Origin: Chloroflexota bacterium
Lineage (GTDB): Bacteria > Chloroflexota > Limnocylindria > P2-11E
DNA: 64,000 nt
NCBI GenBank assembly: GCA_005883625.1
Contig: VBDU01000069.1
Location: 17,003 to 81,002, forward strand
Direction: 5' to 3'
Shown here: positions 19,589 to 52,054 of the stretch, piece by piece
Layout: the number at the start of each line of letters is the position of its first letter
Numbering within the stretch: position 1 is the first letter of the stretch
Translations under genes and position numbers: made by a program
The notes under the pieces: generated by a model
What the model saw: only the letters and a program-made list of their open reading frames with translations
Database searches by the model: none
Told to the model about the DNA's origin: nothing

Positions 19589-20908
19589 ATGATTTCGGTG
19601 GGTCAATTCATCGCCACGCTCACGCTGCTCATCGCATCGCTCCTACCCGCTCGCTCGCTCGCCGCGCTCCCGCCGCAAGCCACCGCATCCGCGACCGCGA
19701 CCTGCGTGTCGCAGACCGGCCCCGGCATCCCGCCGCCCGCCGTCATCCCGACAAAGCTCTCCGGATTCCACGCGGCCTGGTACGGACAGAGCGGCTACAT
19801 GCAGCTCTGCGCCGGCGAGCGCGCGACCGCGACGCTCGCGTACCTCAACTCGGGATCGCGGGGCTGGGTCTCCGGTCGCATGGGCGAGGTCGCGTACCTC
19901 GGCACGTGGGCAAGCGAGCCGGGCCAGGACCAGCCGAGCATCCTCGGTGGCGACGGGCAGCGCGGCTCGCCGGCCACCGGCTGGCCACGCTGGAATCGCA
20001 TCGCGATCCAGCCGGCCGACTATGTCGGCCCGGGACAGGTCGCCTGGTTCCAGTTCAGCGTCCAGGCGCCGAACACGCCCGGCACGTACCGCCTGTACGT
20101 GCGACCGCTCGTCGAGGGCGCGACGTGGCTCGAGGATGTCGGCGTCTTCTGGCAGGTGACGGTCCTGAATTCGGACGGCACCACGCCGAGGCCCACGCCG
20201 CCCGATCCGGCGGGCGTCCGCTTCCAGATCGACGACGGGGTGGGCGCGCGCGACATCGCGCTCGTGCATCAAGGCGTGCAGCACGTCGCCGCGTATCTCG
20301 ACACGAACGCGGGCGGCGCGCGGCGCACCGCGTCGCTCGTGCACGTCTACGTCGGCGACGGAACGGAGCGGTACTGCTGCCTCACGTCGGGGGACCGCTA
20401 CGAGGTCGTGACGTCGAACAAGGCGTGGGCGGCGCCGCAGGCCGCGGCGCCCGACACGTGGGCGCCAGACACCGAGCGCACTGAGCTCGCGGCGCACGAG
20501 TACGTGCACCTCTGGCAGTACGCGCTCGGCGGGCGGCCCTGCATGCTCGGCGTGCGCTGGCTCTCGGAGGGCATGGCGGAATCGTTCGCGTACCGCTCGC
20601 TCATTGCGGACGGGATCATCCCGCAGGCGAACCTCGACACGTTCACCAAGCGGCAGCTGCGGAACGCCACGAACCCCGTCCCGCTCCGCACCCTCGAGAC
20701 CGCGTGGCCCTCCGATGCGAACCCGTTCGCGGTCTCCTACCTCGCGGTCGATCGCCTCCTGGGGTCGAACGGTCCGCGGATCAGAGACTTCTGCGTGCGC
20801 GTGGGCCGCGGCGAAGAGTGGCGCACGGCGTTCGCGTCATCGTTCGGCATGACGACCGACGCGTTCTACCAGAGCTTCGAGCAGCTCCGCGCCGACTACG
20901 TCCGCTAG
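19589..20908 (+). CDS. Secreted HExxH metallopeptidase-like protein with N-terminal shared module
   Basis: Signal peptide; shared module 19703..20169; ELAAHEYVHLWQYALGG...WLSEGMAESFAYRS gluzincin-like. Confidence 0.8.
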   Translation: MISVGQFIATLTLLIASLLPARSLAALPPQATASATATCVSQTGPGIPPPAVIPTKLSGFHAAWYGQSGYMQLCAGERATATLAYLNSGSRGWVSGRMGEVAYLGTWASEPGQDQPSILGGDGQRGSPATGWPRWNRIAIQPADYVGPGQVAWFQFSVQAPNTPGTYRLYVRPLVEGATWLEDVGVFWQVTVLNSDGTTPRPTPPDPAGVRFQIDDGVGARDIALVHQGVQHVAAYLDTNAGGARRTASLVHVYVGDGTERYCCLTSGDRYEVVTSNKAWAAPQAAAPDTWAPDTERTELAAHEYVHLWQYALGGRPCMLGVRWLSEGMAESFAYRSLIADGIIPQANLDTFTKRQLRNATNPVPLRTLETAWPSDANPFAVSYLAVDRLLGSNGPRIRDFCVRVGRGEEWRTAFASSFGMTTDAFYQSFEQLRADYVR

Positions 20909-24750: not shown

Positions 24751-26808
24751 TCAGTCGGGCGCGCCGAGCACTCCGTCCGGGGAGGCCAGGACGTCCCAGG
24801 GATTCCCGGCGAGGTCGCTGATCCCTGCCGCCTCGCTGATGGTCGCCGGCAGCTGCAGCCCCGGGTTCGTTCCCGCCTGCACGATCGTCGGGCTGGCCTT
24901 CAGCACGATCGTGAGGACGCGATTGGGCGGGTAGGGCGTGCCGGCGAGCGCCTCGGTGGCGGTGTTCAGAGTGCAGGCGTTCGTGCCGCACACGATGTCA
25001 GCGAACGTCCCATCCGCGTCGACGCCCTGGATCCTCGCCCCGGGTGCGATCTTCATGTCCTTGCTGAAGGCGATCTTGATGACGTCCCCGGCGTCGAACG
25101 TGTTCGCCAGGCCCGCGACCGTCGTGACGCGCGCGTCGATCGAACGCGGGTCGGCGTTCGGACCGACCGGCGTCGGCGGCGTCTCGACCGTGATGAAGTT
25201 GCCGTACGCCCAGAGCGTCGCGTTCGTGACCGGGTTCGTCACGCCGACGCGATAGCAGTAGAACCCGCTCGAGATCTGTCGATCGAGGAACGCGACCGTG
25301 TCCTGGCCGCGCGGGATCTGGACGGTCCCGCGCGGGGCATACCCGCCGCCGCTCGACTCGCACGACGGGCCGATCGCCGTGACCGACGTGCCCCAGACCT
25401 GATACACGATGTCGTCGACGTTCGTCGGCGGCTCGGTGATCGTGATCTGGATGTCGTCCTGCACGTTCTCGTTGTCGTAATCGTCCACGTTGCCGACGAC
25501 GGTGACGGCGGCGCGCCCGACGTCGTTCGTGATCGTGAAGCTCGACATCCCGGTGGGATCGGCGCTGTACGTCATGGTGATGCCGTCGCCCGTCGAGAGC
25601 AGCTGCTCGAACTGCGCGAGCGACAGGGTCATGTTCCCGAGCATGAACACGTCGTTGCCGTCGTAACGGAACGTCTTCGTGCCACCCGAGTCCACGAAAT
25701 AGTGCTCGTCCAGATTCACGGCGCCGACCGCGATCGTGTACGAGGACGAGGTCGCGGGTGGCGGGATGAAGCGGACCGGCGCCCCGACGCCGACGATCTC
25801 GGTCGGGAAGTTCGTCGCGTTCAGGTCGAGGGCGTTGTTGTTGTTGGTGTCCTGGAAGAAGATGGGCCGCACGTTCGCGTTGCCGTTCGTCGACGTGACC
25901 GTGACGTCGATCGTCCCCGAGGGCGGGATGACGACACAGTCCACGTAGCTCGTCCCTTTCTGGATGCCGCCCACGGTCGCGAACGTCGCCGCAGTCGAAA
26001 GGTCGGCCTTGTCGTCGCCCACGACCTTGCCGCTCGCATCGGTCTCGGCGTCCCGGAACGAGCCGTTCACCGGGTACGTCGCGGCGTCGACGAACGCGAG
26101 ATCGAGGCAGCCGGTGATCCCGTTCGCCTGCGCGGTGTACGACCGGGTCGTGTTGATGGCCTGCGTCAGCGCTGTCGTCGGCGAGACGAGGACACCGGTG
26201 AGATCGACGGCCCTTACGGTCACCTGCCAGAAGACGCCGAAGTCCTCCATCCAATTGGCTCCCTCGACGAGCGGACGGATGTAGAGGCGGTACGTCCCTG
26301 GCTGCTGCGGCGCCTGGATGGTGAACTGGAACCACGAGACCTGGTTCGGCCCGACGTAGTCGGCCGGTTGCGCCGCGACCCGGTTGTAGCGCGGCCAACC
26401 GGTCGCGGGCGAGCCGTTCGTCCCGTCGCCGCCGAGCGAGCTCGGCTGGTCCTGCCCCGGGAGCGGGGTCCACGTTCCGAGGAACGCCATCTCGCCGAGC
26501 CGGCCGCTCACCCAGCCGCGGGTGCCCGAGTTGTAGTAGGCGACGACCGCGGTCGACTTATCGCCGGGGCAGAGCGTCGGATAGCCGGACTGCCCGTACC
26601 ACGAGGCGTGGAAGCCCGGGAGGCCGGACGGCACGGTCCCAGGAGGGGCGATTCCGGGGCCGACCGACGACACGCAGGCCTGCGCTCGCGATGTCCCGGA
26701 GGGCGCGACCTGCGCGGCCCGGCTCGGCCCGGCGGGCGCCGTCGCGGCGACGAGCGCCACGACGGCGAACGCTGTGAGGAGGCGGACGGCGACACGCACC
26801 CGCTCCAT
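24751..26808 (-). CDS. Large secreted protein with N-terminal shared module and Ig-like/adhesin-like C-terminal regions
   Basis: Signal peptide; shared module 26210..26676; Thr/Asp/Asn-rich remainder. Confidence 0.8.
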   Translation of the reverse strand: MERVRVAVRLLTAFAVVALVAATAPAGPSRAAQVAPSGTSRAQACVSSVGPGIAPPGTVPSGLPGFHASWYGQSGYPTLCPGDKSTAVVAYYNSGTRGWVSGRLGEMAFLGTWTPLPGQDQPSSLGGDGTNGSPATGWPRYNRVAAQPADYVGPNQVSWFQFTIQAPQQPGTYRLYIRPLVEGANWMEDFGVFWQVTVRAVDLTGVLVSPTTALTQAINTTRSYTAQANGITGCLDLAFVDAATYPVNGSFRDAETDASGKVVGDDKADLSTAATFATVGGIQKGTSYVDCVVIPPSGTIDVTVTSTNGNANVRPIFFQDTNNNNALDLNATNFPTEIVGVGAPVRFIPPPATSSSYTIAVGAVNLDEHYFVDSGGTKTFRYDGNDVFMLGNMTLSLAQFEQLLSTGDGITMTYSADPTGMSSFTITNDVGRAAVTVVGNVDDYDNENVQDDIQITITEPPTNVDDIVYQVWGTSVTAIGPSCESSGGGYAPRGTVQIPRGQDTVAFLDRQISSGFYCYRVGVTNPVTNATLWAYGNFITVETPPTPVGPNADPRSIDARVTTVAGLANTFDAGDVIKIAFSKDMKIAPGARIQGVDADGTFADIVCGTNACTLNTATEALAGTPYPPNRVLTIVLKASPTIVQAGTNPGLQLPATISEAAGISDLAGNPWDVLASPDGVLGAPD

Positions 26809-36294: not shown

Positions 36295-37389
36295 TCACGC
36301 GGCGCGCTTGGCCTTTCGCGAGGCCCGTCGTTCGCTTCGCTCCAGCAACGCAAGGACCGCACGCTCGTCGCGAGAGAGGCCACCGTGCGGGACGTCACCG
36401 GTACGCTTCGAGCCGAGCGCCCGCGGGAGCGTGCCCGTCAGGTACGCCTCGACCACCGCCGGATGTACGTAGCAGCGGCGGCAGATCGCGCGAGTGTTCC
36501 CGAGGCGCGCCGCCACCTCGTCGATCGCCGCGACAAGCTCGCCCTGCGCGCGCCGCTCGTTCTTGTGCGCCGGTCGCGACGCGAGGGCGCGCGCCGCATG
36601 AACGGTTCCGGCCCAGGTGCGGAGCTCCTTCGCGGTGAGATCCTCGCCCGAGATCTCTCGCAGGTACGCGTTCACGTCGTCGGAGCCGAGCGGATGCGTC
36701 GCCCCTTCGTCGTCGAGGTACTGGAAGAGCTCCTGACCGGGAAGCTCCTCGAGCTTCGCGACGATCCGCGCGAGCCGGCCGTCGCGCAGCCGGACCTCGT
36801 GCTCCTTCCCGCTCTTGCCGCGGAAACGAAAGACGATCCGCGTCCCGCTGACGTCGACGTGGCGATTCCGCAGCGTCGTCAGGCCGAACGATCGGTTCGC
36901 GCGCGCGTATTCCTCGTTGCCGACGCGGATCGCGGTCTCCTCCAGGAGGCGTACGACCGCCGCGAGCACCTTTTCGCGCGGTACGCCCTGGCGAGCAAGG
37001 TCGCGCTGTACGCGCCCGCGTATCCGAGTGAGCAGCTTCGCCAGAGGGACGAGGCGGCCGTACTTCGTCTCGTCCCGCACGGCGCGCCAGCGCTCGTGAT
37101 AGCGGTACTGCTTGCGGCCCCTTGCGTCCCGCCCGGTCGCCTGCAGATGACCGAGCGGGTCCGGCGAGATCCAGACGTCCGTCCACGCGGGCGGTATCGC
37201 CAGTCGCTCTATGCGGCGCCTCTCCGCGCGGTCACGGATCGCGCGTCCGCCCCGATCGACGAAGGTGAAGTCGCGACCCTGTCGCTTCCGACGGATCCCC
37301 GGCCGGTCATCGCTCGTGTAGCGCAGTCCCGCGAGCTCAGCGGCCTCGAGCGGATCGGACGCGAGCGCGGTCGCCATGCCGGCGGTCAA
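36295..37389 (-). CDS. DNA topoisomerase IB
   Basis: RYTSDDRPGIRRKRQGRDFTFVD ... GRKQYRYHERW ... IRVGNEEYARANRSFGLTTLRNRHV ... LGNTRAICRRCYVHPAVVEAYL. Confidence 0.95.
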   Translation of the reverse strand: MTAGMATALASDPLEAAELAGLRYTSDDRPGIRRKRQGRDFTFVDRGGRAIRDRAERRRIERLAIPPAWTDVWISPDPLGHLQATGRDARGRKQYRYHERWRAVRDETKYGRLVPLAKLLTRIRGRVQRDLARQGVPREKVLAAVVRLLEETAIRVGNEEYARANRSFGLTTLRNRHVDVSGTRIVFRFRGKSGKEHEVRLRDGRLARIVAKLEELPGQELFQYLDDEGATHPLGSDDVNAYLREISGEDLTAKELRTWAGTVHAARALASRPAHKNERRAQGELVAAIDEVAARLGNTRAICRRCYVHPAVVEAYLTGTLPRALGSKRTGDVPHGGLSRDERAVLALLERSERRASRKAKRAA

Positions 37390-37974: not shown

Positions 37975-39228
37975 ATGGCGGCGGACGCGATCACGAACGC
38001 GGACATCGCCGAGCTCCTCGCGCGCGAGTCAGAGCGCACCGAGGGGCGTGCCGCCAAGGCGCTACGGCGCGCGTCGCGGGCTGCCCTCATGTGGCCGGAG
38101 GAGGCCGGCCGCCTGCGCGACGCCGACCGACCCTTCACCGAGCTCCGCGCGGTGGGCCCCTTCACCGCGCGCTTCCTCTCGACCTGGCTGCGCGAGGGGA
38201 CCAGCGTGCGCGAGCGTCCGCCGCTGCGGGACGGGTTCCTCAGCTACGCGCAGGCACGCGAGGTCGTTGCGAGCCACGCCGATTGGCGGACCGGACTCGA
38301 GGGCGACCTGCAGATGCACACCGACGAGACCGACGGCGCCGCGAGTGTGGAGGACATGGTCGCGGCGGCCCGCGCGCTCGGCCATCACTACGTCGCGATC
38401 ACGGACCACAGCAAGACGCTGCGCATCACGAACGGAATGGACGAGACCCGACTGGCGGCCCAGGGCGAGCGGATCGACGCCCTCAACGCCACGGGCATGC
38501 CGACCTGGGCCCTCCGAGCGATCGAGATGGACCTCACGCCGGAAGGCGCCGGCGACATGGATCCGTCCGCGCTCGCGCGGCTCGACCTCGTGCTCGGCGC
38601 GTTCCATTCCAAGCTCCGTCTCCGGGAGGATCAGACGGAGCGCTATCTCACGGCGCTCGCCAACCCCGACGTTCACGTGCTCGCGCATCCGCGCGGCCGC
38701 ATCTACAACTTCCGGGCGGGCCTCAGCGCGGACTGGGAGCGCGTCGCCCGCCGCGCCGCGGAGACCGGGACGGCGCTCGAGATCGATGCTTACCCGGACC
38801 GTCAGGATCTCGACGTCGACCGGCTCCGGGTCGTCGCCGAGTCGGGTGGCTGGGTCTCCATCGGCACGGACGCCCATACGCCGAGCGAGCTCGTTTTCTT
38901 CGAGATCGGGATCGCGGCCGCCATCCTCGCGGGGCTGCCGCGCGAGCGCATCCTGAATTACCTTCCGCTCAGGCAGCTGCGCGAGTGGGCTGGTCGTATT
39001 CGTGCACGGAGGCACGGCGATCCAGCGAAAAGGAGCGTGGCCATGGCGGGCAAGCGCGAGACGATCGACACGACCCCGGGCAAGCAGGGCGGGTCCCGTT
39101 ACGTCCGGCGCGACAGCGGCGGCCGGTTCAGCACGGACCAGGTGCGGGCGGGACGGTCCGTCGCCCAGGACCGCCGCGTCAAGGCGAAGAACAAGGCGCC
39201 GAAGGGGATGAAGGACCGCGGCGACTAA
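37975..39228 (+). CDS. PolX-like PHP-domain phosphoesterase reading in frame into a small basic C-terminal protein
   Basis: DLQMHTDETDGAASVEDMVAAARALGHHYVAITDHSKTLRITNGMDE ... LAHPRGRIYNF ... IGTDAHTPSEL. Confidence 0.88.
   Translation: MAADAITNADIAELLARESERTEGRAAKALRRASRAALMWPEEAGRLRDADRPFTELRAVGPFTARFLSTWLREGTSVRERPPLRDGFLSYAQAREVVASHADWRTGLEGDLQMHTDETDGAASVEDMVAAARALGHHYVAITDHSKTLRITNGMDETRLAAQGERIDALNATGMPTWALRAIEMDLTPEGAGDMDPSALARLDLVLGAFHSKLRLREDQTERYLTALANPDVHVLAHPRGRIYNFRAGLSADWERVARRAAETGTALEIDAYPDRQDLDVDRLRVVAESGGWVSIGTDAHTPSELVFFEIGIAAAILAGLPRERILNYLPLRQLREWAGRIRARRHGDPAKRSVAMAGKRETIDTTPGKQGGSRYVRRDSGGRFSTDQVRAGRSVAQDRRVKAKNKAPKGMKDRGD
39043..39228 (+). CDS. Nested small basic protein, possibly separately translated
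   Basis: MAGKRETIDTTPGKQGGSRYVRRDSGGRFSTDQVRAGRSVAQDRRVKAKNKAPKG with SD aaaaggag upstream of its ATG. Confidence 0.5.
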   Translation: MAGKRETIDTTPGKQGGSRYVRRDSGGRFSTDQVRAGRSVAQDRRVKAKNKAPKGMKDRGD

Positions 39229-39847
39229 GTCGCGCGATCTCAAGGAGTACGAGCGCAAGCGCGACTTCGCGGCGACGCCGGAGCCGCGGGCCAAAGGCGG
39301 GAAACGCCGGGGGTCCGAGGGGGCAACGCCCCCTCGACTCTTCGTCGTCCAGAAGCACCGCGCTAGCCAGCTGCACTACGACTTCCGCCTGGAAGCCGGC
39401 GGCGTCCTCGTCTCCTGGGCGGTCCCGAAGGGCCCGTCGCTCGACCCCCGAGACAAGCGGCTCGCGATGGCGGTCGAGGACCACCCGCTCGACTACGCGC
39501 GCTTCGAGGGCGTGATCCCGGAGGGCGAGTACGGTGGCGGCACCGTCATGGTCTGGGACATCGGCACGTACACGCTGGAGGACGACGAGAGCTTCGAGGC
39601 CGCGCTCCGCCGCGGTCGGATCGTGTTCACGCTCGAGGGCAAGAAGCTGAAGGGCGCGTGGACGCTCATCCGCACGAGTGGGCGCAAGTGGCTGCTCACG
39701 AAGCGCCGCGACCGCTCTGCCTCGACCACGCGGATCGCGGAGGCCAAGCCGCGCTCGGTGCTGACCCGCCGCCTGCTCGCGGGGATCGCGCGCGACGAGG
39801 GCGGCGACGTCGCGAAGGCCGCGACCGGCGATCCCGGCGGCGGGTGA
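39224..39847 (+). CDS. LigD-type 3'-phosphoesterase (PE) domain protein; start codon unresolved
   Basis: FVVQKHRASQLHYDFRLEAGGVLVSWAVPKGPSLDPRDKRLAMAVEDHPLDYARFEGVIPEGEYGGGTVMVWDIGTY. Confidence 0.88.
   Translation, partial: TKSRDLKEYERKRDFAATPEPRAKGGKRRGSEGATPPRLFVVQKHRASQLHYDFRLEAGGVLVSWAVPKGPSLDPRDKRLAMAVEDHPLDYARFEGVIPEGEYGGGTVMVWDIGTYTLEDDESFEAALRRGRIVFTLEGKKLKGAWTLIRTSGRKWLLTKRRDRSASTTRIAEAKPRSVLTRRLLAGIARDEGGDVAKAATGDPGGG
39308..39337. repeat. GC-rich palindromic repeat inside the LigD-PE gene
   Basis: cgggggtccgagggggcaacgccccctcga; shares CGGGGGTCCGAGGGG with the reverse complement of 49092..49126. Confidence 0.7.
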
Positions 39848-40773
39848 ACGTCCCGCCGAGACCGATGCTCGCGACGCTGTCGCCCGAGGTGGTCACCGGT
39901 CCGGAGTGGGTCTTCGAGGAGAAGTACGACGGCATCCGCGCGATCGCGACCCGCCAGGCAGGCGCCATCCGGCTCTGGTCGCGCATGCTCCAGGACCTCA
40001 CGGCCGGGTTTCCCGAGATCGTGGCCGCGGTCCGTGCGCTCCCGGACGGCGACCTCGCCGTCGACGGCGAGCTGGTCTCGCTGGACGAGCACGGCGTCTC
40101 GCGATTCCAGCTGCTCCAGCGCCGCGGGGCCAAGGGCGCGACGGCGCCGCGGTACGCCGTCTTCGACATCCTCGAGCTGGACGGGCGCTCGCTGCGCTCC
40201 AGGCCACTCGCGGAGCGCCGGACCGCGCTCGAGAAGCTCCTCGCGCGCACGACCGGGCCGATCTTCCTCTCGCGACGGCTGCCGCGCGACGGCGAAAAGG
40301 CGGACGCGATCGCGCGCGAGAAGGGCTGGGAGGGGATCATCGCGAAGGACGAGCGATCGATCTACGAGGCGAACACGCGCTCGCGCTCGTGGCGAAAGGT
40401 CAAGGTTCGCAAGGAGTCCGAGTTCGTGATCGGCGGCTACACAGCGCCGGCCGGGAGCCGCGAGCAGTTCGGCGCGCTCCTCGTCGGCCTCTATCAGGGT
40501 CGCGACCTCCGGTTCGTCGGCAAGGTCGGCACCGGCTACACCCGCGAGACGCTGGCGTCGCTTGGCGCGCGGCTCGCGCGCTTGCGCACGCCGCGCTGTC
40601 CATTCACGCCGCCGCCCCGGATCGGCGGTGCCACCTGGGTGCGGCCGAAGCTCGTCGCCCAGATCGCGTACGCGGAGTGGACCGCGGGCGACAAGCTCCG
40701 CCAGCCGGCGTTCCTCGGCCTGCGCACCGACAAGGATCCGACCGAATGCACCTGGAGCTCGCGTGAGATTTGA
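39844..40773 (+). CDS. ATP-dependent DNA ligase (LigD-type ligase domain)
   Basis: EEKYDGIRAIA, GELVSLDEHG, GWEGIIAKD, KVKVRKESEFVIGGYT; GTG overlaps PE stop. Confidence 0.94.
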   Translation: MNVPPRPMLATLSPEVVTGPEWVFEEKYDGIRAIATRQAGAIRLWSRMLQDLTAGFPEIVAAVRALPDGDLAVDGELVSLDEHGVSRFQLLQRRGAKGATAPRYAVFDILELDGRSLRSRPLAERRTALEKLLARTTGPIFLSRRLPRDGEKADAIAREKGWEGIIAKDERSIYEANTRSRSWRKVKVRKESEFVIGGYTAPAGSREQFGALLVGLYQGRDLRFVGKVGTGYTRETLASLGARLARLRTPRCPFTPPPRIGGATWVRPKLVAQIAYAEWTAGDKLRQPAFLGLRTDKDPTECTWSSREI

Positions 40774-40797
40774 CGAGAGTCGCGGGTCCTGTCCCGG

Positions 40798-41703
40798 TTG
40801 AAAGACCCACTGCGCCGTGCCAGCCGCGATCCCCGTGTCGCCGGCGTGCTCGTCAGCAATCCGACGAAGGTGTGGTGGCCCGACGACGGGATCACGAAGC
40901 TCGACATGGCGCGGTTCTACGACGGCCTCTGGACGAAGCTGCGTCCATGGCTTCGCGATCGCCCGCTGACCGCGGAGCGCTGCCCCGACGGCATGCTCGG
41001 GAGCTGCTTCTACCAGAAGGACTTCGCGCTCGACGGCCCGCCGGCCGGGACGCCGCGCTTGCGCCTCCGTGCGGCGAGCACCGGCAAAGACGTGCACTAC
41101 CTCGTGGGCGGGTCGCGCGCGACGCTCGCCGCGATGGTGAACCTCGGGTGCATCGCCATACACGTCATGAGCACCCGTGCCTCGAACATGCGCGACGCGG
41201 ACTGGCTCGCCTTTGACCTCGATCCGTCGAGCGGCGAGTTCGCCGACGCGGCGCGAGCCGGTCTCGCCCTGCGCCCGCTCCTCGACGACGCCCGCCTCAC
41301 GTCCTTCCCGAAGACGTCGGGGAGCCGCGGCCTCCATGTCTTCGTGCCGCTCCGGGCCGGGCAGTCGCTCGACGAGGCACGCCGCGTCGCGGTCGCGATC
41401 GGCGAGGAGCTGGCCCGCCGCGAGCCGAAGCTCGTCACGGTCGCGCACCGCAAGTCCGCCCGCGGCGGACGCGTGTTCGCCGACGCGTTTCGCAACGGCT
41501 ACGGGCAGACGATCGTGCCGCCGTACTCGGTCCGCCGGCGGCCGCATGCGGTGGTCTCGACGCCGCTCGCCTGGGACGAGGTCTCCCCGCGACTCGATCC
41601 GTCGCGCTTCACGATCCGCACGCTCGACCGCCGGCTCGCGAAGGCCGACCCGTGGGCCGCGTTCTGGCGCACACGCCAATCGCTCCGGAACGTCGCGATG
41701 TGA
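40798..41703 (+). CDS. LigD-type DNA polymerase/primase domain protein
   Basis: VSNPTKVWWPDDGITKLDMARFY ... FDLDPSSGEF ... FPKTSGSRGLHVFVPL ... PYSVRRRPHAVVSTPLAWDEV; TTG start. Confidence 0.93.
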   Translation: MKDPLRRASRDPRVAGVLVSNPTKVWWPDDGITKLDMARFYDGLWTKLRPWLRDRPLTAERCPDGMLGSCFYQKDFALDGPPAGTPRLRLRAASTGKDVHYLVGGSRATLAAMVNLGCIAIHVMSTRASNMRDADWLAFDLDPSSGEFADAARAGLALRPLLDDARLTSFPKTSGSRGLHVFVPLRAGQSLDEARRVAVAIGEELARREPKLVTVAHRKSARGGRVFADAFRNGYGQTIVPPYSVRRRPHAVVSTPLAWDEVSPRLDPSRFTIRTLDRRLAKADPWAAFWRTRQSLRNVAM

Positions 41704-42053: not shown

Positions 42054-42701
42054 ATGGGACTGCGGCAGCGGATCGCTCGCGCCGCGATCCGCGCGCTCTT
42101 TCGGATCCTCTTCCGGCCGCGGCTCGTGGGCGCGCCACCCCGAGATGGGCCGTACCTCATGGTCGCGAACCATCAGGGCTGGGCGGACGGCTTCCTCCTG
42201 TCCGCGTTCCTTCCCGCCGAGCCGCGCGTCGTCTTCCTGGGCGACCGCGACGGGACGATGGGCATCTGGTGGCATCGTGCGATCCTCCGCACGATCGGGC
42301 TCGTCATCCCGATCGACCGGACGACGCGCTCGGACCGCAGCGCGATCGACGCCGCGCTCGCCTCTCTCGCCGAGGGCTGCGCACTCGTCGTCTTCGCGGA
42401 AGGGCAGGTCTCGCACGCCGAAAACGCGCTCGTGCCGTTCCGGCGCGGCGTGGGTTACCTCGCGCTGCGCGCCGGTGTTCCGGTCGTCCCGGTCTGGCTC
42501 TCGGGAACGGCGGAGCTCTACCTTGGACGCGAGCTCGCCGTGACCGTGGGCCAGCCACGCGAGGTCGTTGGGAAGCCGACGAAGGAGGCGACGCTCGCCG
42601 TCGCGCGAACGCTCCACGCCGACGTGGCCGCGCTCGCGCCGCGAGAGGGCCCACGCGCGCCCGCGCGCAAGCGCTGGGTCTGGCTCACGAACCTCTTCTA
42701 G
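42054..42701 (+). CDS. 1-acyl-sn-glycerol-3-phosphate acyltransferase-like (PlsC family)
   Basis: MVANHQGWADGF (HX4D), VFAEGQVS. Confidence 0.9.
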   Translation: MGLRQRIARAAIRALFRILFRPRLVGAPPRDGPYLMVANHQGWADGFLLSAFLPAEPRVVFLGDRDGTMGIWWHRAILRTIGLVIPIDRTTRSDRSAIDAALASLAEGCALVVFAEGQVSHAENALVPFRRGVGYLALRAGVPVVPVWLSGTAELYLGRELAVTVGQPREVVGKPTKEATLAVARTLHADVAALAPREGPRAPARKRWVWLTNLF

Positions 42702-43372
42702 GGACGCACCTCGCGGAGCAGGAGCGCCTCGTCGATGACGCGGACGTTGCGCCGTTCGACGTCGATGAGCCCGCGCTTCTCGAAGTCGGCGAGGAGCTTG
42801 TTCACCGTCATGCGCGTCGACCCGATCGCGGCCGCGAGGTCGTCCTGCGTGAGGGGGAGCGGGAGGCCCGTCTTCGCGATCTCGAGCAGGTATTTCGCGA
42901 GGCGGCTCGTCACGTCGAGGAAGGCGAGGTCTTCGGCCTTCACCTCGAGCGTGCGGATGGTCCGGCTGAGCCGCTCGAACATGAACCGGCTCGCTTCCGG
43001 ATTGCGCCGGAGCACCCGAAGCGCGCCGTCGCGCTCGATCTGCAGAGCGGTCGTGGGGATGATGGCCATCGCCGTCCCGTCGCGTGGCGCCTTCTCGAAG
43101 AGCGCGAGCTCGCCGAAGAACTCGCCGCGGCGCATGATCGAGACAAGGAGCTCGTGGCCCTGCTCGTCGAGGAGCAGCACCTTCACCAACCCCTCGAACA
43201 CGACGTACGCGTGCTCGGCGGGGTCGCCCTGGTGGTAGACGACTTCGTCCTGCTTGAACTTGCGGACGGCCATGTGCGAGACGAGCTCGAGCCGGTCAGG
43301 CTCGGGCAGCAGGTCTATGGGCAGGACGTCGCCGAGGGTGGCCGCCATCCGCCGGAGCTCTTCGAGCTGCAC
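42698..43372 (-). CDS. Crp/Fnr-family transcriptional regulator
   Basis: cNMP-binding domain plus HTH: LPLTQDDLAAAIGSTRMTVNKLLADFEKRGLIDVERRNVRV. Confidence 0.93.
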   Translation of the reverse strand: MQLEELRRMAATLGDVLPIDLLPEPDRLELVSHMAVRKFKQDEVVYHQGDPAEHAYVVFEGLVKVLLLDEQGHELLVSIMRRGEFFGELALFEKAPRDGTAMAIIPTTALQIERDGALRVLRRNPEASRFMFERLSRTIRTLEVKAEDLAFLDVTSRLAKYLLEIAKTGLPLPLTQDDLAAAIGSTRMTVNKLLADFEKRGLIDVERRNVRVIDEALLLREVRP

Positions 43373-43426
43373 GCGCGAAGTCTGCTGGACCGTGTCAAAC
43401 GGCCCGGCGCGCCATACTCGCCCACC

Positions 43427-45562
43427 GTGGACGGGGTCTGGGAGGCGGTCCGCACGCGCACCGACTACGCCGCGTTGGTGCCGCGCCCGCGGACGGACAT
43501 CGAGCGCGCGGACCTTCGCAAGCGCGACGGCACGCCGTACACGGTGCTGAAGAATCCCGCCGGCGACTCGGGCGCCGGCACCTACGTCCGTCTCGAAGGC
43601 CCCGACGTCGAGCTCTACGAGCTCATGGACGGTAGGCGCACGACGTCGGAGATCATCGTCGCGTACCTCGAGCGAAAGGGCGTGTTCGCGCTCGACCGTC
43701 TCGCGCGTCTCACCGCCGCCCTCGGGGTGAACGGCTTCTTCGGGGAGCAGCGGCTCGACGCGTACCGCCGTCCGCGCATCCGGCGCGCGCGGCGCGATCC
43801 GATCGTCCGCATGTCGGGGTGGCTACGGCGCCTCGTCGTCTGGAACATCGCCACGTGGAACAACGCGGAAGGCTTCGTCGACGTGCTCTACCGCGCCGGC
43901 GGCGGGCTCGCGTTCACGCGCGCCGGCGCGACGGTCGTGCTCGCGTTCTCCCTCTTCGGCCTCGGGGTGTGGCTGCGCGAGTTCACCTCGCCGCGCCATC
44001 AGCTGTTCACGGTCGAGGGCAGCTTCCTGCTCGGCCTCCTCGCCCTGATCCTCCTGCAGGTGCTCGCGATCACGGTCCACGAGGCCGGGCACGCGCTCGC
44101 GATCCGCCACTACGGCCGACGGGTGCGTCAGCTCGGCGTCGCGCTCTACTACCTCTTCCCCTGCGTCTATGTCGACTCGACCGACATGACGCTCGCCTCA
44201 CGCCGCCAGCGCGTCGTCGTGTCGCTCGCCGGTCCGCTCGCCGGCGTCGCCGTCGCGGGCGCCTGCGCGCTCGTCGCCGCGGCACAGCCCGAGACCCTCC
44301 TCGGCGCGATCGCGTTCAAGGCGGCGACGCTGCTCGTCTTCCAGTTCGTGATCAACCTGCTTCCGATCCTCGAGCTCGACGGCTATCACGTCCTCGTCGA
44401 CGCGCTCGACGTCCCGCTCCTGCGACAGCGCGCGCTCGGGTTCGTCCGAGGCGGTCTCACGCGAAAGCTGCGGCGCCGCGAGCGCTGGTCGCGCGCCGAG
44501 CTCGGGCTCGCGCTGTATGGCGTCCTTGCGATCGCGGTCTCGCTCGTCACGCTCGGTTTCTCCTTGTGGATCTGGGAGTCGCGGCTACAGGTCGCCGCGC
44601 GAGAGCTCCTCCGCGGGGGCGTCTTCGGTGTCGCTGTCCTCGCGCTCCTGGTCGTGGTCTTCGTCGGCCCGCTGCTCCTTGCTCTCGTCGCGCGGCTCGT
44701 CGGACTGGGGCGCACCGCCATGCGGACCGTCGCGGCACGGCGCCGGCAGGCGCACGAGAACGTCATCGCCGAGCGCGTCGCGCTCCTCGATCGGATCCGC
44801 TTTCTTCGCGGCCTGCCGCGCCCCGCGCTCGCCGCGATCGCCGATCACCTCGTCGAGGAGCGGTTCGCCGCGGGCGACATCGTCGTGACCTACGGCGAGC
44901 CGGGCGACCGCTTTTACCTCGTGCGGTCGGGGCGCCTCGAGGTGCTGCTCGCCGACGGCGAGCCGAAGGGCGCGATGATCGTCCCCGGCGAGGGCTTCGG
45001 GGAGCTTGCGCTCCTCGACCGCGTGCCGCGGTCCGCGACGGTGCGCGCCACGGAGCCGACCGAGCTCTGGTCCCTCGACCGAGGCCACTTCCATCGCTGG
45101 GTCGCCGAGCGCTACGAGGTCGCCGGGCGCATCCGCGCGTCGGTCGACGAGCGTGACACGCTCGCCCGCCTTCCCTTCTTCCGCGGGCTCGACGCGATGG
45201 AGCTCACGCGCATCGCGGCGCGGATGCGGACCGAGCGGGTGAGTGCGGGCGACGCCGTCTTCGCCGAGGGCGAGCGCGCCGACCGCTACTTCGTCATCCG
45301 CTCGGGCGAGGCGGAGATCCGCTCGGCGGACGGCGGCAGCCGGCGCATCGGGCCCGGGGAGGGCTTCGGCGAGATGGGCCTTCTCTACGGGCGGCCGCGG
45401 GGCGCGACCGTGGTCGCCGCCACCGACCTCGTCCTCTCCGCGATCGACCGCGCCGATTTCGGCGCGCTCGTGCGAGCGTCGGGTGAGACGGTGGGTGAGT
45501 TTCGGGCCAGGACGGCGCATTATCTCGGGGCCGGCCTGGCCGGGGCGGTCGGGGGAGGCTAG
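43427..45562 (+). CDS. PqqD-like domain + M50 site-2-type metalloprotease + two cyclic-nucleotide-binding domains
   Basis: N-term YVRLEGPDVELYELMDGRRTTSEIIVAYLE; VHEAGHALAIRHYGRRV; LLPILELDGYHVLVDAL; two CNB repeats with FGELALLDRVPRSATV and FGEMGLLYGRPRGATV. Confidence 0.9.
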   Translation: MDGVWEAVRTRTDYAALVPRPRTDIERADLRKRDGTPYTVLKNPAGDSGAGTYVRLEGPDVELYELMDGRRTTSEIIVAYLERKGVFALDRLARLTAALGVNGFFGEQRLDAYRRPRIRRARRDPIVRMSGWLRRLVVWNIATWNNAEGFVDVLYRAGGGLAFTRAGATVVLAFSLFGLGVWLREFTSPRHQLFTVEGSFLLGLLALILLQVLAITVHEAGHALAIRHYGRRVRQLGVALYYLFPCVYVDSTDMTLASRRQRVVVSLAGPLAGVAVAGACALVAAAQPETLLGAIAFKAATLLVFQFVINLLPILELDGYHVLVDALDVPLLRQRALGFVRGGLTRKLRRRERWSRAELGLALYGVLAIAVSLVTLGFSLWIWESRLQVAARELLRGGVFGVAVLALLVVVFVGPLLLALVARLVGLGRTAMRTVAARRRQAHENVIAERVALLDRIRFLRGLPRPALAAIADHLVEERFAAGDIVVTYGEPGDRFYLVRSGRLEVLLADGEPKGAMIVPGEGFGELALLDRVPRSATVRATEPTELWSLDRGHFHRWVAERYEVAGRIRASVDERDTLARLPFFRGLDAMELTRIAARMRTERVSAGDAVFAEGERADRYFVIRSGEAEIRSADGGSRRIGPGEGFGEMGLLYGRPRGATVVAATDLVLSAIDRADFGALVRASGETVGEFRARTAHYLGAGLAGAVGGG

Positions 45563-45567
45563 GGGGG

Positions 45568-45783
45568 TTGGACTGCTGGACGTGCGAGCGGACGGCGCTC
45601 GGGGCGTGTCGCTTCTGCGGTCGGGGCGTGTGCCGCGACCACGCGAAGCTCCACCCGTTCATCGTGGATGTGTTCCGCGGCCAGCGGCACCAGACGCTGC
45701 GCGCGCTCGTCGTCGACGATGCCCTCCACTGCGGGGTCTGCCGGCCGCGAGGCGATCCGATCGAGCTGCCCGAGCTCGAGTGA
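45568..45783 (+). CDS. Small Cys-rich putative zinc-binding protein
   Basis: CWTCERTALGACRFCGRGVCRDHAK ... LHCGVCRP. Confidence 0.75.
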   Translation: MDCWTCERTALGACRFCGRGVCRDHAKLHPFIVDVFRGQRHQTLRALVVDDALHCGVCRPRGDPIELPELE

Positions 45784-45811
45784 AGCGGAGAGGAGTGGGA
45801 AGGGGGCGCCA

Positions 45812-45830
45812 GGACTGTTAACCAGTTGAC
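45812..45830 (+). promoter_or_regulatory. Duplicated upstream element copy 1 (GGACTGTTAACCAGTTGAC)
   Basis: 17/19 identical to 46687..46705, same distance to the ATG; contains TTGAC. Confidence 0.6.
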
Positions 45831-45922
45831 GGTGCGCGGGTGTCCGATTTGGCCGTGCGACGGGCCAAGCCGGAGGAATGTGGCGACGAACCACCGACCA
45901 GAAGTGGCGAAGGAGGGACTGG

Positions 45923-46552
45923 ATGTCCAGGATCAACGACGTCGTGCAACGCGCGATCAGTGACGCGGCATTCCGCAGCCAGCTACGGTCCGACCCGGCG
46001 AAGGCGCTTCGCGGCTTCAGCCTGAGCCCCGAGGAGACCCGGGCGCTCACGAGCGGCGACTCCGCGAGGCTCGTCGCCCTGGGTGTCGACCAGCGGATGT
46101 CGAAGATGTTCACGGCCGGCCCCGACGCGAGCACGCACAGCATGGTGAGCACGGCCCAGTCCGACACGTCGCCCGCGGTCCACACGGCGCTGACCTCGAC
46201 CGGCGGCGCGGCGGCGGGCGTGAACGTCAGCAACCCGTACGAGGGTGAGTTCATCATCGTGCCGGACACGGCGGACGCCCATGCGGCGCTTCAGCCGAGC
46301 CTGTCCCGAACGGGCGGTGAGGATCTCCTCGTGGGAGTCGGCGACGACAGCGCGAGCACTTTCCTCCCGGGCGAGCCGCACGACGCGACCGACAGCCTGC
46401 CGGTCCTCGGCGACACCTCCAACGCGGCGATCGTCTCGCCGGCCCCGTTGGACGCGGACGCCGTCCCGGACTTCCACTCCGCCGGCGAGACGCACTACGG
46501 CGGCGACGCGACGGATCCCGGCACTCCCGACGCGAACGAGATCACGCCCTAA
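45923..46552 (+). CDS. Putative RiPP-like precursor protein A (NHLP/Os1348-like leader)
   Basis: MSRINDVVQRAISDAAFRSQLRSDPAKALRGFSLSPEETRALTSGD, SD aggaggga upstream; Cys-free divergent C-terminus. Confidence 0.75.
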   Translation: MSRINDVVQRAISDAAFRSQLRSDPAKALRGFSLSPEETRALTSGDSARLVALGVDQRMSKMFTAGPDASTHSMVSTAQSDTSPAVHTALTSTGGAAAGVNVSNPYEGEFIIVPDTADAHAALQPSLSRTGGEDLLVGVGDDSASTFLPGEPHDATDSLPVLGDTSNAAIVSPAPLDADAVPDFHSAGETHYGGDATDPGTPDANEITP

Positions 46553-46572
46553 AAGCCCACGACGAAGCTCCG

Positions 46573-46600
46573 AACAGCCTCCCGATTCCGGGAGGCTGTT
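46573..46600 (+). terminator. Rho-independent-like terminator after precursor A
   Basis: AACAGCCTCCCG-ATTC-CGGGAGGCTGTT followed by ccttttcc. Confidence 0.85.
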
Positions 46601-46686
46601 CCTTTTCCGGCAGGCTGTTCCCTTTCCGGTCGGAACGGCGCACTATCGGGGTGTCGCGAACGAAGAAGGGGAGGCAGGAAGGGCCG

Positions 46687-46705
46687 GGACTGTTGCCCAG
46701 TTGAC
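46687..46705 (+). promoter_or_regulatory. Duplicated upstream element copy 2 (GGACTGTTGCCCAGTTGAC)
   Basis: See copy 1. Confidence 0.6.
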
Positions 46706-46796
46706 GAAAGATGCGTGACGAGTTTGCTCGAGCGGGTGCGCTGACCGGCGCAGGCTGCCGAGGACACCACTTCTGAGTGGCGGAAGGAGAGTGCGA

Positions 46797-47435
46797 ATGA
46801 CGAAGCTCAACGACGTCGTGCAGCGCGCGATCAGCGACGCGGCGTTCCGCAGCCAGCTTCGGAGCGACCCGGCAAAGGCGCTCCGCGGCTTCAGCCTCAG
46901 CCCGGAGGAGACGCGGGCCCTGACGAGCGGCGATCCGGCCAAGCTCGTCGCGCTCGGCATCGACCAGCGGATGTCGAAGGTCTTCGTCACGGGCGGCGCG
47001 ACCGGCACACCGTTCGAAGCGAACCAGACGGGCGATGTCGGTATCTCGCACGCGGCCCTCACCTCGACGGGCGGCAGGCTCGCCGGCGGTCAGACCGTCA
47101 ACATCGGCGACCCGGACGCGATCCTCATCAGCGGCCGGGACGAGCGTGACGCGCTCGCCGCGCCGCACTACCGGGGCGACCCGGACTACATCGCCTCGAG
47201 TGGCGACGAGAGCGCGCACGCGGCGCTCCAGCCGAACCGGATCGGCGGCGACCCCGACTTCGTCGCGCCGACGAGCGGGCAGGTCGACTCCGGCGCGACG
47301 ATCGACCCGGGCTCGGTCGACAGCGCATCGCTCCAGACCGGCGAGAACCAGGTCGACACCGGCGCCCAGGTCGACAGCACCGATGCCGCTCACAACACGA
47401 TCACGCCGGGCGGAGACCACGTCACGGACTACTAG
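46797..47435 (+). CDS. Putative RiPP-like precursor protein B (NHLP/Os1348-like leader)
   Basis: MTKLNDVVQRAISDAAFRSQLRSDPAKALRGFSLSPEETRALTSGD, SD aaggaga upstream; Cys-free divergent C-terminus. Confidence 0.75.
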   Translation: MTKLNDVVQRAISDAAFRSQLRSDPAKALRGFSLSPEETRALTSGDPAKLVALGIDQRMSKVFVTGGATGTPFEANQTGDVGISHAALTSTGGRLAGGQTVNIGDPDAILISGRDERDALAAPHYRGDPDYIASSGDESAHAALQPNRIGGDPDFVAPTSGQVDSGATIDPGSVDSASLQTGENQVDTGAQVDSTDAAHNTITPGGDHVTDY

Positions 47436-47460
47436 AGGGGCTTCGCGGCTTTTCTGAGCG

Positions 47461-47484
47461 AAGGAGCGGCACGGGCCGCTCCTT
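47461..47484 (+). terminator. Rho-independent-like terminator after precursor B
   Basis: AAGGAGCGGC-ACGG-GCCGCTCCTT followed by cctctttct. Confidence 0.8.
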
Positions 47485-47493
47485 CCTCTTTCT

Positions 47494-48165
47494 CTAGTAC
47501 CGGATCTGCTTGCGGAGCCGGTCGACGTCCTTCACCACGATGTGCCGGCGACCCACGCTGAGCGCGCCCTGGCTCTCGAGGTCGGCGAGCGCGCGGTTCA
47601 CCGAGACGCGCGTGGCGCCGACGAACGCGGCGACGTCGTCCTGCGTCATCTCGATCTCGCTCTTCCCCTGTGCCGTCGAGATGTCGAGAAGGCACTTCGC
47701 GACCCGCCCGGAGACGTCGAGGAAGACGAGGTCCTCGATGCGGCCCGAGGCGCGCCGGATCATCCGTGCGAGCAGGGCAAGCAGCTCCTTCATCGCCTTC
47801 GGGTTCCGCTCGATGACGCGCAGGAAGTCCTCGCGCGACAGGGCGAGCACCTGCGTCTCGTTGATCGCGGTGACGGTGGCGGATCGAGGGGCGTCGTCGA
47901 AGAGCGCCAGCTGGCCGAAGATGCCGCCGCCCCGCTCCATCGCGATCACGACCTCGTGTCCGCTCTCGTCGGGGATCGCGACCTTCACCGTGCCGGCGAC
48001 GATCACGTACATGTGCGCCGCGGGATCGTCGCGGTGGAACACGACCTCGTCGCGCGCGAAGCGCCGGGCACGCATGTGCGTCGCAGCCTCGACACGGTCC
48101 GGCTGGCTCAGCGCGGCGAACACCGGGACCTCCGCGAGCAGGTCCGCGACCACTTTGGTGTCCAC
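47494..48165 (-). CDS. Crp/Fnr-family transcriptional regulator
   Basis: cNMP-binding domain plus HTH EMTQDDVAAFVGATRVSVNRALADLESQGALSVGRRHIVV. Confidence 0.93.
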   Translation of the reverse strand: MDTKVVADLLAEVPVFAALSQPDRVEAATHMRARRFARDEVVFHRDDPAAHMYVIVAGTVKVAIPDESGHEVVIAMERGGGIFGQLALFDDAPRSATVTAINETQVLALSREDFLRVIERNPKAMKELLALLARMIRRASGRIEDLVFLDVSGRVAKCLLDISTAQGKSEIEMTQDDVAAFVGATRVSVNRALADLESQGALSVGRRHIVVKDVDRLRKQIRY

Positions 48166-49921: not shown

Positions 49922-52054
49922 ATGGGAACCCTGATCCACGTCTCCGTCTACCTGCTTGCCTTCTGGCTCGCGATCGCGCCGGCTTCCGTCCCGACGCCGC
50001 AGAACGAGCCCGCGCCGGTGGCGAGCGGCGAGCTCCGCGCGTTCTGGGCCGACGCGTTCGGCGAGGGCATGAATTCCCAAGCGGAGATCGATCAGCTCGT
50101 CGCTGCGACGAAGGCCGCGCACCTCAACGCGATCGTCGCGCAGGTCGTGCGGCGCGGCGACTGCTTCTGCAACCGCGCCGCGGTGCCGCGGACGGACGCG
50201 CCGATCTCGGCGCTCCCCTTCGATCCCCTCGACGCGCTCATCGCGACCGCGCACGCGAACGGGATCGAGGTGCACGCCTGGGTCATCGCCAACGCTATGT
50301 GGCAGACGCCGGGTACCCCGACGTCACCGGACCACGTCTACAACGTGCATGGCCCAAGTGCCGCCGGGCGCGCGAACTGGGTCATGACCCGGTCCGACGG
50401 CCTCGCGACGCTCAACCGCGATGTCTACCTCGATCCGGGACATCCCGACGCCGCGGCGTGGGTCGTGAACGTGGCGACGAGCATCGTCCGCAGCTACGAC
50501 GTTGATGGCATCAACCTCGACCGCATCCGCTACCCCGATGGCAACCTCGGCACGAACGTTCCGTCGTGGGGCTACAACCCGACCGCGCTCGACCATTTCC
50601 GCGGCGACACCGGCCGCAGCGACACGCCGGCGCCGTCGGATCCGCAGTGGACGCAGTGGCGCCGCGATCAGATCACCGACATCGTGCGCCGCGTGTACGT
50701 CGAATCGACGGAGCTCAAACCGCGCATCCGCGTGAGCGCGGACCTCATCACGTACGGCTTCGGCCCCCAGACCGCCGGCGCGTTCGAGAACACGCGTACC
50801 TACGCCGAGGTCCTGCAGGACTGGCGTGGCTGGCTGCGCGAAGGGATCCTCGACACCGCGATCCTCATGGACTACAAGCGCGACACCCTCACCACGGGCG
50901 GGAACGACCAGCGCCGCATGTACGCGGAGTGGAGCGACTTCGCCAAGGACAACCAGTTCCGCCGATCGGCCGTGATCGGCGCTGGCCTGTACATCAACGA
51001 CATCGCCTCGAGCGCCCGCCAAGCGCGCGTGGCGCTCGCGCCGAGCCCGTCAGGCAACAGCGCGATCGGCTGGGCCGGGTACTCGTACCGCACGCCGGAT
51101 GACCTCACGGACAATGGCACGCGCTCAGGCGCGGCGAGCCGCGTCGAGCTCATCAAGGCGCTCACCGCGCAGAGCCAGTACGACGCGGTCGCGCCACCGG
51201 TCTTCGCCGAGACAAAGGGCGTCCCCGGCATGGCCTGGAAGGTGAACCCGCTCTTCGGTCACATCAAGGGCCTGGTCCACGGCGCCGATGGGACGCCACT
51301 CGGCGGCGCGAAGCTGGCGCTCCTCGACGACGCGACCGGGTTCCTCGTGCGCTCGGCCGTCTCCGACGGGAACGGCTGGTTCGGCTTCGTCGACCTTCCG
51401 GCGAACGCGTATCGCGTGACGACCGACGCGCCGGCCGTCGCGGGCGGCGTCGTGGGGCGCGCGACGGTGACCCCCGGCGCCGTCGCCGTGGTGAGCGCGA
51501 CCGCGGCGCCCGCGCCGACGCCGATCGCGACGCCACTGCCGAGCGCGATCCCGATCCCGACGCCGCCGCCGCCCGCCCCAACGTGCCAGTCGAGCGCCGG
51601 CCCCGGCATCCCGCCGCCCGCGAAGATCGCGTCCGGCGTGCCCGGGTTCCACGCGTCGTGGTACGGCCAGTCGGGGTATCCGACCCTCTGCCCGGGCGAG
51701 CGCGCGACCGCGGTCGTCGCCTATTACAACAGCGGGACGCGCGGCTGGGTCGCGGGGAAGCTCGGCGAGGTCGGGTACCTCGGTACGTGGAACCCCGAGC
51801 CCGGGCAAGACCGGATGAGCATCCTCGGCGGCGACGGCGCCGCGGGCTCGCCCGACACCGGCTGGCCTCGCTACAACCGCGTCGCCGTGCAGCCGTCCGA
51901 CTACGTCGGGCCGAACCAGGTCGCCTGGTTCGAGTTCACGATCGTGGCGCCCGCCGTCCCCGGGACGTACCGGCTCGCGATCCGTCCGCTCATCGAAGGC
52001 GCGCAGTGGATGGAGGACTACGGCGTCTTCTGGTACGTGACCGTCAAGAGCTGA
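49922..52054 (+). CDS. Secreted GHL10-like (DUF187-type) glycosyl hydrolase with C-terminal shared module
   Basis: ELRAFWADAFGEGMNSQAEIDQLVAATKAAHLNAIVAQVVRRGDCF ... VDGINLDRIRYPDG; module 51584..52054. Confidence 0.87.
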   Translation: MGTLIHVSVYLLAFWLAIAPASVPTPQNEPAPVASGELRAFWADAFGEGMNSQAEIDQLVAATKAAHLNAIVAQVVRRGDCFCNRAAVPRTDAPISALPFDPLDALIATAHANGIEVHAWVIANAMWQTPGTPTSPDHVYNVHGPSAAGRANWVMTRSDGLATLNRDVYLDPGHPDAAAWVVNVATSIVRSYDVDGINLDRIRYPDGNLGTNVPSWGYNPTALDHFRGDTGRSDTPAPSDPQWTQWRRDQITDIVRRVYVESTELKPRIRVSADLITYGFGPQTAGAFENTRTYAEVLQDWRGWLREGILDTAILMDYKRDTLTTGGNDQRRMYAEWSDFAKDNQFRRSAVIGAGLYINDIASSARQARVALAPSPSGNSAIGWAGYSYRTPDDLTDNGTRSGAASRVELIKALTAQSQYDAVAPPVFAETKGVPGMAWKVNPLFGHIKGLVHGADGTPLGGAKLALLDDATGFLVRSAVSDGNGWFGFVDLPANAYRVTTDAPAVAGGVVGRATVTPGAVAVVSATAAPAPTPIATPLPSAIPIPTPPPPAPTCQSSAGPGIPPPAKIASGVPGFHASWYGQSGYPTLCPGERATAVVAYYNSGTRGWVAGKLGEVGYLGTWNPEPGQDRMSILGGDGAAGSPDTGWPRYNRVAVQPSDYVGPNQVAWFEFTIVAPAVPGTYRLAIRPLIEGAQWMEDYGVFWYVTVKS

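Follow-up and report, generated by a model that had tools for sequence, protein, structure and literature searches.

A candidate leader-guided, cyclic-nucleotide-linked proteolytic maturation cassette for repeat-cored polypeptides in Chloroflexota

Leader removal in RiPP pathways is usually regarded as constitutive or transporter-coupled, and M50 proteins classically act in regulated intramembrane proteolysis. Proteins with paired cyclic-nucleotide-binding (CNB) domains of the TIGR03896 type are linked to NHLP/Nif11 transport. Among Os1348-type precursors, PosA has been shown to be enzymatically modified, and the pos/pfl clusters encode a GNAT protein, a HEXXH oxygenase and an MNIO-nitroreductase, with no protease gene (PMC12636437). 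Folded NHLP leaders engage different enzymes via different surfaces (PMC12455567). M50 proteases with leader-removal roles are known in RiPP pathways: EpeP is thought to cleave and export EpeX, and the pearlin proteases TglG and TmoG are membrane M50 enzymes that act on a leader or scaffold peptide (PMC10885120). Three ingredients are already known, each on its own: this leader family, M50 proteases of RiPP pathways, and proteins with CNB pairs that are annotated with bacteriocin-type systems. The locus analyzed here brings such elements together, and in open-licence papers we found no description of the single-chain fusion, its permuted twin, the constant zinc-finger partner or the repeat-array cores.

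Architecture of the cassette

The window, the whole 64,000-nucleotide stretch of DNA that was analyzed (C82:17003-81002), belongs to a high-GC genome of 3.19 Mb in 129 contigs, from the same family as Chloroflexi MAG L014 (DAIDAP010000004, apparently the same contig as G141:C38). A preliminary description had proposed a peptide-maturation system made up of a PqqD-like/M50/CNB-CNB protein, a small Cys-rich protein, two precursor-like proteins and flanking Crp/Fnr genes. The features are as follows.

42698..43372, - strand: second Crp/Fnr regulator (CNB + HTH_Crp_2), divergent from the M50 gene
43427..45562, + strand: PqqD-like/M50 intramembrane protease/CNB-CNB protein, 711 aa, GTG start
Residues ~20-118 of the 711-aa protein: PqqD-like domain
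Residues 166-420 of the 711-aa protein: M50 part with six hydrophobic segments, HEAGH at 218-222 and LDGY at 317-320 (from motifs and hydropathy)
Residues ~459-575 of the 711-aa protein: CNB1, phosphate-binding cassette FGELALLDRVPRSATV
Residues ~584-690 of the 711-aa protein: CNB2, phosphate-binding cassette FGEMGLLYGRPRGATV
45568..45783, + strand: putative zinc finger, small Cys/His protein, 71 aa, TTG start
45816..45831, + strand: candidate Crp-family operator TGTTAACCAGTTGACG, 107 bp upstream of precursor 1 (7/10, P 0.26)
45923..46552, + strand: precursor-like protein 1, 209 aa; leader 1-62, ending QRMSK, and 147-aa core
46691..46706, + strand: candidate Crp-like element TGTTGCCCAGTTGACG upstream of precursor 2 (6/10 to the Crp palindrome)
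46797..47435, + strand: precursor-like protein 2, 212 aa; same leader and 150-aa core
47494..48165, - strand: Crp/Fnr regulator (CNB + HTH_Crp_2) on the precursor side, convergent, conserved cassette member

The M50 core and the two CNB domains proposed for the 711-aa protein hold up well. Pfam M50 matches at 41.5 bits against a cut-off of 27.2, both CNB domains are above the Pfam cut-off (137 bits), and HEAGH and LDGY are in place. Family alignments retain the HExxH and DG motifs in 11 type A and 9 type B relatives (locus types are defined below), and the protease looks intact. The phosphate-binding cassettes (FGE...R.A) of both CNB domains are canonical; across the 11 type A proteins aligned, the phosphate-binding Arg is invariant in CNB1 and CNB2, as is the cassette Glu in CNB1. 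With ligand-contact residues present, the pair, which is similar to the regulatory tandems of PKA and PKG, is predicted to sense cAMP or cGMP. The even number (six) of hydrophobic segments would place the N- and C-terminus of the protein on one side of the membrane.

The PqqD-like N-terminal domain could be supported through homologs, but in the window protein itself PF05402 stays below its gathering score (13.0 vs 23.4 bits, E 0.13). This model matches 6 of the 13 family members tested, with a best E of 0.001, and across 28 family genomes type A and type B proteins supply many of its best matches, still sub-threshold. The homologous domain of an FHA-PqqD-M50 protein from family f9 passes at 25.4 bits, and hhalign pairs the window domain with this Pfam-confirmed one at prob 97.1 and E 4.8e-11. 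An AlphaFold model of the 711-aa protein built on a two-sequence alignment (pLDDT 53.6) gives the order beta-beta-beta-alpha-alpha-alpha at residues 26-101 with modest confidence; the PqqD fragment modeled separately reached a pLDDT of 48.2, and a PDB search with the PqqD-like profile returned no real match. Taken through its homologs, the domain is probably PqqD-like.

The small Cys-rich protein is likewise present. Its motif reads CxxC-x7-CxxC-x4-C-x2-H ... CGVC, and orthologs occupy the same place in 7 more type A loci and also in families f19 and f10. Pfam matches are sub-threshold (C5HCH 24.4 vs 26.3 bits, DUF2180 20.9 vs 22.2 bits) and an NCBIfam scan gave none. It is a conserved cassette member.

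The preliminary description saw no modifying enzyme in the cluster, and we agree: neither a tailoring enzyme nor an ABC transporter was recognized in the cassette loci, and a modifying enzyme of the kind that partners NF038399 leaders was not found in the window cluster. Neighboring window genes include an acyltransferase, LigD parts and GHL10. LigD is encoded as three separate + strand ORFs at 39467-41703 (3'-phosphoesterase, ATP-dependent ligase and primase-polymerase, each over its Pfam cut-off), near a PHP-domain gene (37975-39228) and a bacterial topoisomerase IB (36295-37377, - strand). Three window proteins (19589-20908, 24751-26808 and 49922-52054) have a CVSQTGPGIPPP-like stretch in common; two are without a Pfam match and the third combines GHL10 and CarboxypepD_reg domains.

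Conserved leaders and hypervariable cores

The precursor-like proteins join conserved leaders to cores that are hypervariable, Cys-free, acidic and repetitive. The NHLP/Os1348-like character ascribed to the window leaders was borne out by NF038399 ('Os1348 family NHLP clan'), which scores 61.0 bits for precursor 1 and 62.1 bits for precursor 2 against a curated cut-off of 40; related NHLP models match both weakly, and Pfam Frankia_peptide is sub-threshold (34.7 and 35.4 vs 48). The N-terminal block reported as common to the two proteins is indeed identical save a few residues. At the codon level 22 of 59 positions differ, 17 of them synonymously (dN 0.06, dS 0.56, dN/dS ~0.1). Because the differences are mostly synonymous and dS is 0.56, the likeness points to purifying selection and not to a fresh copy. 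Recent gene conversion of the window leaders is ruled out by the same dS. The leader end, QRMSK/ERMSK-like or R[M/L/I/V]SK, is conserved even in distant relatives. Elsewhere NF038399 scores 40.5-42.7 for the f19 proteins and 48.4 for f38 (cut-off 40).

The reading of these leaders as RiPP-like was sustained insofar as they fall in a named RiPP-type leader family; the domain is also found in plainly non-RiPP settings, namely a formate-dehydrogenase/Nuo-like cluster, a LigA-like protein and single-pass membrane proteins, so an Os1348-type leader alone is no proof of a RiPP. At L148 (G402:C55) a 94-aa Os1348-like protein lies beside Nuo/formate-dehydrogenase-like genes, a non-RiPP use of the fold, and a sequence similar to the domain also ends a 741-aa protein. 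At L150:6398-7552 and L151:6570-7970 the domain is N-terminal in apparent single-pass membrane proteins with a large C-terminal domain.

Both window cores lack Cys, as had been noted for the C-termini, and also Lys. The core of precursor 2 holds about three degenerate ~23-aa GDPD... repeats (repeat score 53 vs a shuffle maximum of 38); the same scoring found no significant repeat in precursor 1. Across the window family the cores contain 0 Cys in 4,611 residues and 1% Lys and are rich in Ala, Gly, Asp, Ser and Thr. They measure 83-477 aa in the copies read, some of which are cut by contig ends, and carry a negative net charge in every case examined. Internal repeats beat all 40 shuffles in most of the 22 cores scored; examples are NVIHDDPNGFLAANAD and VRTGDDWKF in g2 and DQAQRAGERIAGEASFATNANV in g1. 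Several contigs terminate inside precursor genes, as is expected because repeats break assemblies. Cys-based RiPP chemistry is excluded by this composition.

The pattern is most extreme in f19, where the tails are almost pure arrays of 4-6-aa units on conserved, similar leaders: (NSAEAL)n in G192, (STVESQ)n in G525, (SDTLAQ)n in G528, (GSAEA)n in G494 and (ARNT)n in G268. The DNA of f19 loci L174 and L235 repeats with a period of 18 bp. In G345 a leaderless tandem (ASKRV)n ORF (L175:9541-9948) sits in the precursor slot of an otherwise typical cassette.

Linkage, locus types and candidate control elements

Leaders over the NF038399 cut-off occur in 20 of 177 genomes of the class, all 20 in the window family. 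The PqqD-M50-CNB gene is present in 19 of these, nearly always on the same contig and within about 3 kb; in the twentieth (G140) the contig ends inside the upstream precursor. Two locus types were distinguished. Type A runs in the order PqqD-M50-CNB-CNB protein, small zinc-finger-like protein, one to three leader proteins (three paralogs in L106) and Crp/Fnr. Type B encodes a CNB-CNB-PqqD-M50 protein convergent with a 77-89-aa leader peptide and mostly adjoins ftsH and a 2'-5' RNA-ligase-like gene; it is also found in the window genome, on contig C30, and in sister genomes. Only the protease, the zinc finger and Crp/Fnr recur beside the leaders in the type A loci read, and no tailoring gene does.

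The type B locus of the window genome (G000:C30) is flanked by a RimK-like ATP-grasp gene (L027:2580-3566, 25.1 vs 21 bits) and by a thioredoxin-like membrane protein recognized by eye (L027:1888-2583); similar ATP-grasp genes are seen at three other type B loci.

The four-gene type A cassette recurs across the window family and in a second Chloroflexota family, f19, where it is complete in L174. There the M50-CNB gene is present in 8 of 18 genomes, all 6 leader genes lie directly downstream of it at 0.4-0.6 kb, and the 10 genomes without it contain no leader. A related three-gene set in f10 (L240) comprises two short leaders, the zinc-finger protein and a 1036-aa PqqD-M50...CNB-CNB protein, and in f38 (L155) two 70-71-aa leader peptides stand in operon order with CNB-CNB-PqqD-M50. 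In an f9 genome, leader proteins numbering at least five and ranging from 324 to 1463 aa accompany a zinc-ribbon/FHA/PqqD/M50 protein and a kinase-like protein. The preliminary description had called for a survey of M50-CNB genes next to leader homologs, where their absence would have told against it, and the linkage indeed holds in several families; many Os1348-type matches in the phylum are without an adjacent M50-CNB gene, and at the f16 and f53 leader loci checked, over about 1.5 kb each side, no adjacent M50 gene was found.

The f9 cluster (L146:5455-20000 and L147:1269-5660, G217:C20) consists of low-complexity, repeat-rich leader proteins with FHA in the place of CNB. A 1037-aa protein at L172:7392-10505 (G242:C257) has an FHA-like start, judged by eye, three CNB matches and PqqD-M50; it adjoins an ABC-permease-like gene, and the G242 leaders are on other contigs.

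Both flanking Crp/Fnr genes of the preliminary description were confirmed as such, but they differ in standing. Most type A loci, and f19 as well, have a Crp/Fnr gene next to the precursor, and none was seen at the position of 42698-43372 in other type A loci. Judged by this distribution, the gene at 42698-43372 is outside the conserved cassette and only that at 47494-48165 belongs to it.

The regions upstream of precursors 1 and 2 both match CTGTTNNCCAGTTGACG exactly, at equal distance. With up to 3 mismatches allowed, shuffled sequence equals this number of matches in 17 of 100 trials, so the window motif is by itself insufficiently rare and was judged by its cross-genome footprint. This footprint, ~TGTTA-N6-TCACA, precedes most precursor starts of the window family by some 95-107 bp; 14 of 20 precursors reach at least 7/10 to TGTGA-N6-TCACA in that zone, compared with 17 of 59 control upstream regions at any position. 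The palindrome upstream of many precursors is a candidate site for the linked Crp/Fnr protein, suggestive only in view of the poor match in the window and of a footprint inflated by relatedness. Genes with receiver and class III nucleotide cyclase domains adjoin the cassette in G139 and are nearby in G153, and in G145 such a gene, its cyclase split into two frames, adjoins a third leader gene. The window genome has 12 class III cyclase matches. Cross-lineage conservation, the permuted second locus, tandem-repeat cores, linked cyclases and the upstream Crp-like element all go beyond the preliminary description.

Proposed mechanism, alternatives and relation to known systems

We see about an even chance that the cassette matures repeat-cored polypeptides by proteolysis that is guided by the leader and gated by a cyclic nucleotide. 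In this scheme the PqqD-like domain of the membrane protein, in the cytosol, would grip each precursor by its folded Os1348/NHLP-type leader, and the M50 protease fused to it would cleave close to R[M/L/I/V]SK, where the leader ends, or inside the core. Also on the cytosolic side, the tandem CNB domains would switch the protease on or off in response to cAMP or cGMP, and the linked Crp/Fnr protein may switch precursor transcription via the upstream palindrome. The core would then be released or exported, and the M50 protein may also aid its passage across the membrane, as proposed for EpeP. The leader would stay fixed because the machinery reads it, while the core could take on nearly any repetitive sequence that lacks Cys and is, as a rule, acidic; side-chain chemistry, if any, would come from enzymes outside the cassette. 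Several observations weigh against this reading. Cores of ~480 aa in the window family and ~1,400 aa in the FHA-protease family are very long for a RiPP, no tailoring enzyme or ABC transporter was recognized in the cassette, and the Os1348-type domain is also found in non-RiPP proteins. Moreover, the PqqD match is sub-threshold and the Crp-like site weak in the window, and the structure predictions are of low confidence.

An unlikely competitor holds that these are tagged secreted or surface proteins. The Os1348 domain would be an export or processing tag, the repeat tail itself the product (e.g., disordered matrix, adhesin-like or mucin-like), and the M50-CNB protein would remove the tag at the membrane on a cyclic-nucleotide signal, with no RiPP chemistry. 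Long, acidic, hydrophilic, repeat-rich cores without Cys suit such a role, as do the weak, low-complexity match of f19 arrays to Ser/Asp-rich adhesin repeats and the giant f9 leader proteins (324-1463 aa) beside the FHA-PqqD-M50 protein. Yet no signal peptide or transporter was recognized, and leader peptides of 70-90 aa beside the same protease type have almost no tail for a structural role.

We consider it improbable that enzymes encoded elsewhere modify the cores and the M50 protein only removes the leader. The leader family is RiPP-type, PosA shows that such leaders guide modifying enzymes (PMC12636437), and the RimK-like ATP-grasp gene (25.1 vs 21 bits) at the second locus of the window genome has similar counterparts in three others; that gene, however, is confined to type B loci and to a minority of genomes, no tailoring gene recurs beside the type A cassettes read, and 4,611 core residues with no Cys and rare Lys exclude Cys-based chemistry. 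Quite improbable, in our view, is a regulatory circuit in which the leader protein is an intracellular regulator or sensor, degraded or released by the M50-CNB protein on a cyclic-nucleotide signal, with no secreted product. The adjoining Crp/Fnr genes and cyclases and the classical role of M50 proteins are in keeping with it, but the precursors have no evident transmembrane segment, their hypervariable tandem-repeat cores are unlike a regulator, and paralogs multiply (three in L106). Chance adjacency of a LigA/NHase-like domain protein and an M50 protein is hardly credible: although Os1348-type domains also turn up in unrelated contexts and the strongest matches in the phylum mostly have no adjacent M50 gene, the linkage recurs in four families whose flanking genes differ, in both domain orders and at both locus types, and f19 contradicts it outright (6/6 leaders beside the gene, none without it).

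Within leader-guided proteolytic maturation, a bolder claim is possible but doubtful: that this is a distinct maturation class, in which a single membrane protein recognizes an NHLP-type leader and, under cyclic-nucleotide control (phosphopeptide control in the FHA variant), sets free oligopeptides or a repeat polymer, with minisatellite-encoded cores whose 4-6-aa unit is swapped wholesale between near relatives. If true, this would be an evolvable multicore peptide system that is gated by a second messenger and in which only proteolysis is obligatory. Since second-messenger receptors and a leader-recognition-like domain share one chain, one protein is enough to test whether a cyclic nucleotide directly gates maturation. 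In f19, precursors whose leaders are alike but whose short units are wholly different offer a natural experiment on the speed of core replacement, and such loci can be sought in uncultured lineages by the architecture, in its two domain orders, together with the leader.

Among described systems, the Os1348/PosA-type precursors of the NHLP clan (NF038399; Pseudomonas pos/pfl) have in common with the cassette a leader over the cut-off and the leader/core layout. In contrast to pos/pfl, the window cassette is without the enzymes of those clusters, its constant partner is a protease, and its cores are long and repetitive. With TIGR03896, the double-CNB 'bacteriocin-type transport-associated protein' (cyc_nuc_ocin), it has in common the paired CNB domains and the annotated bacteriocin-type link; the window protein scores 48.8 against a cut-off of 161 bits, its CNB domains are fused to PqqD-M50, and the cassette contains no transporter. 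TglG and TmoG cut a C-terminal modified amino acid off a reusable scaffold, and no CNB domain or NHLP leader is described there. Anti-phage defense of the Pycsar type (CNB effector with Pyc cyclase) was set aside, the PADLOC matches running via the CNB domains only.

The closest parallels are two families of M50 protease. The epipeptide proteases EpeP/YydH/LiaK (NF058609) also pair an intramembrane M50 protease with an adjacent peptide precursor, and EpeP is the nearest working analogue because it is thought both to cleave and to export EpeX. The window protein scores 61.6 bits with this model against a cut-off of 225, and its cassette differs in having no radical SAM epimerase, an added CNB pair and a different leader. 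To the daptide protease (NF041824) it is homologous through the PqqD-like and M50 parts, scoring 126.2 against a cut-off of 300 bits; an f19 homolog aligns to positions 19-377 of 379 at 170.6 bits. The CNB domains lie outside that model, and no daptide-type cluster was seen. On the best reading, the cassette would work like EpeP- or daptide-type M50 maturation while being a member of neither, and it is a real possibility that its product class is new.
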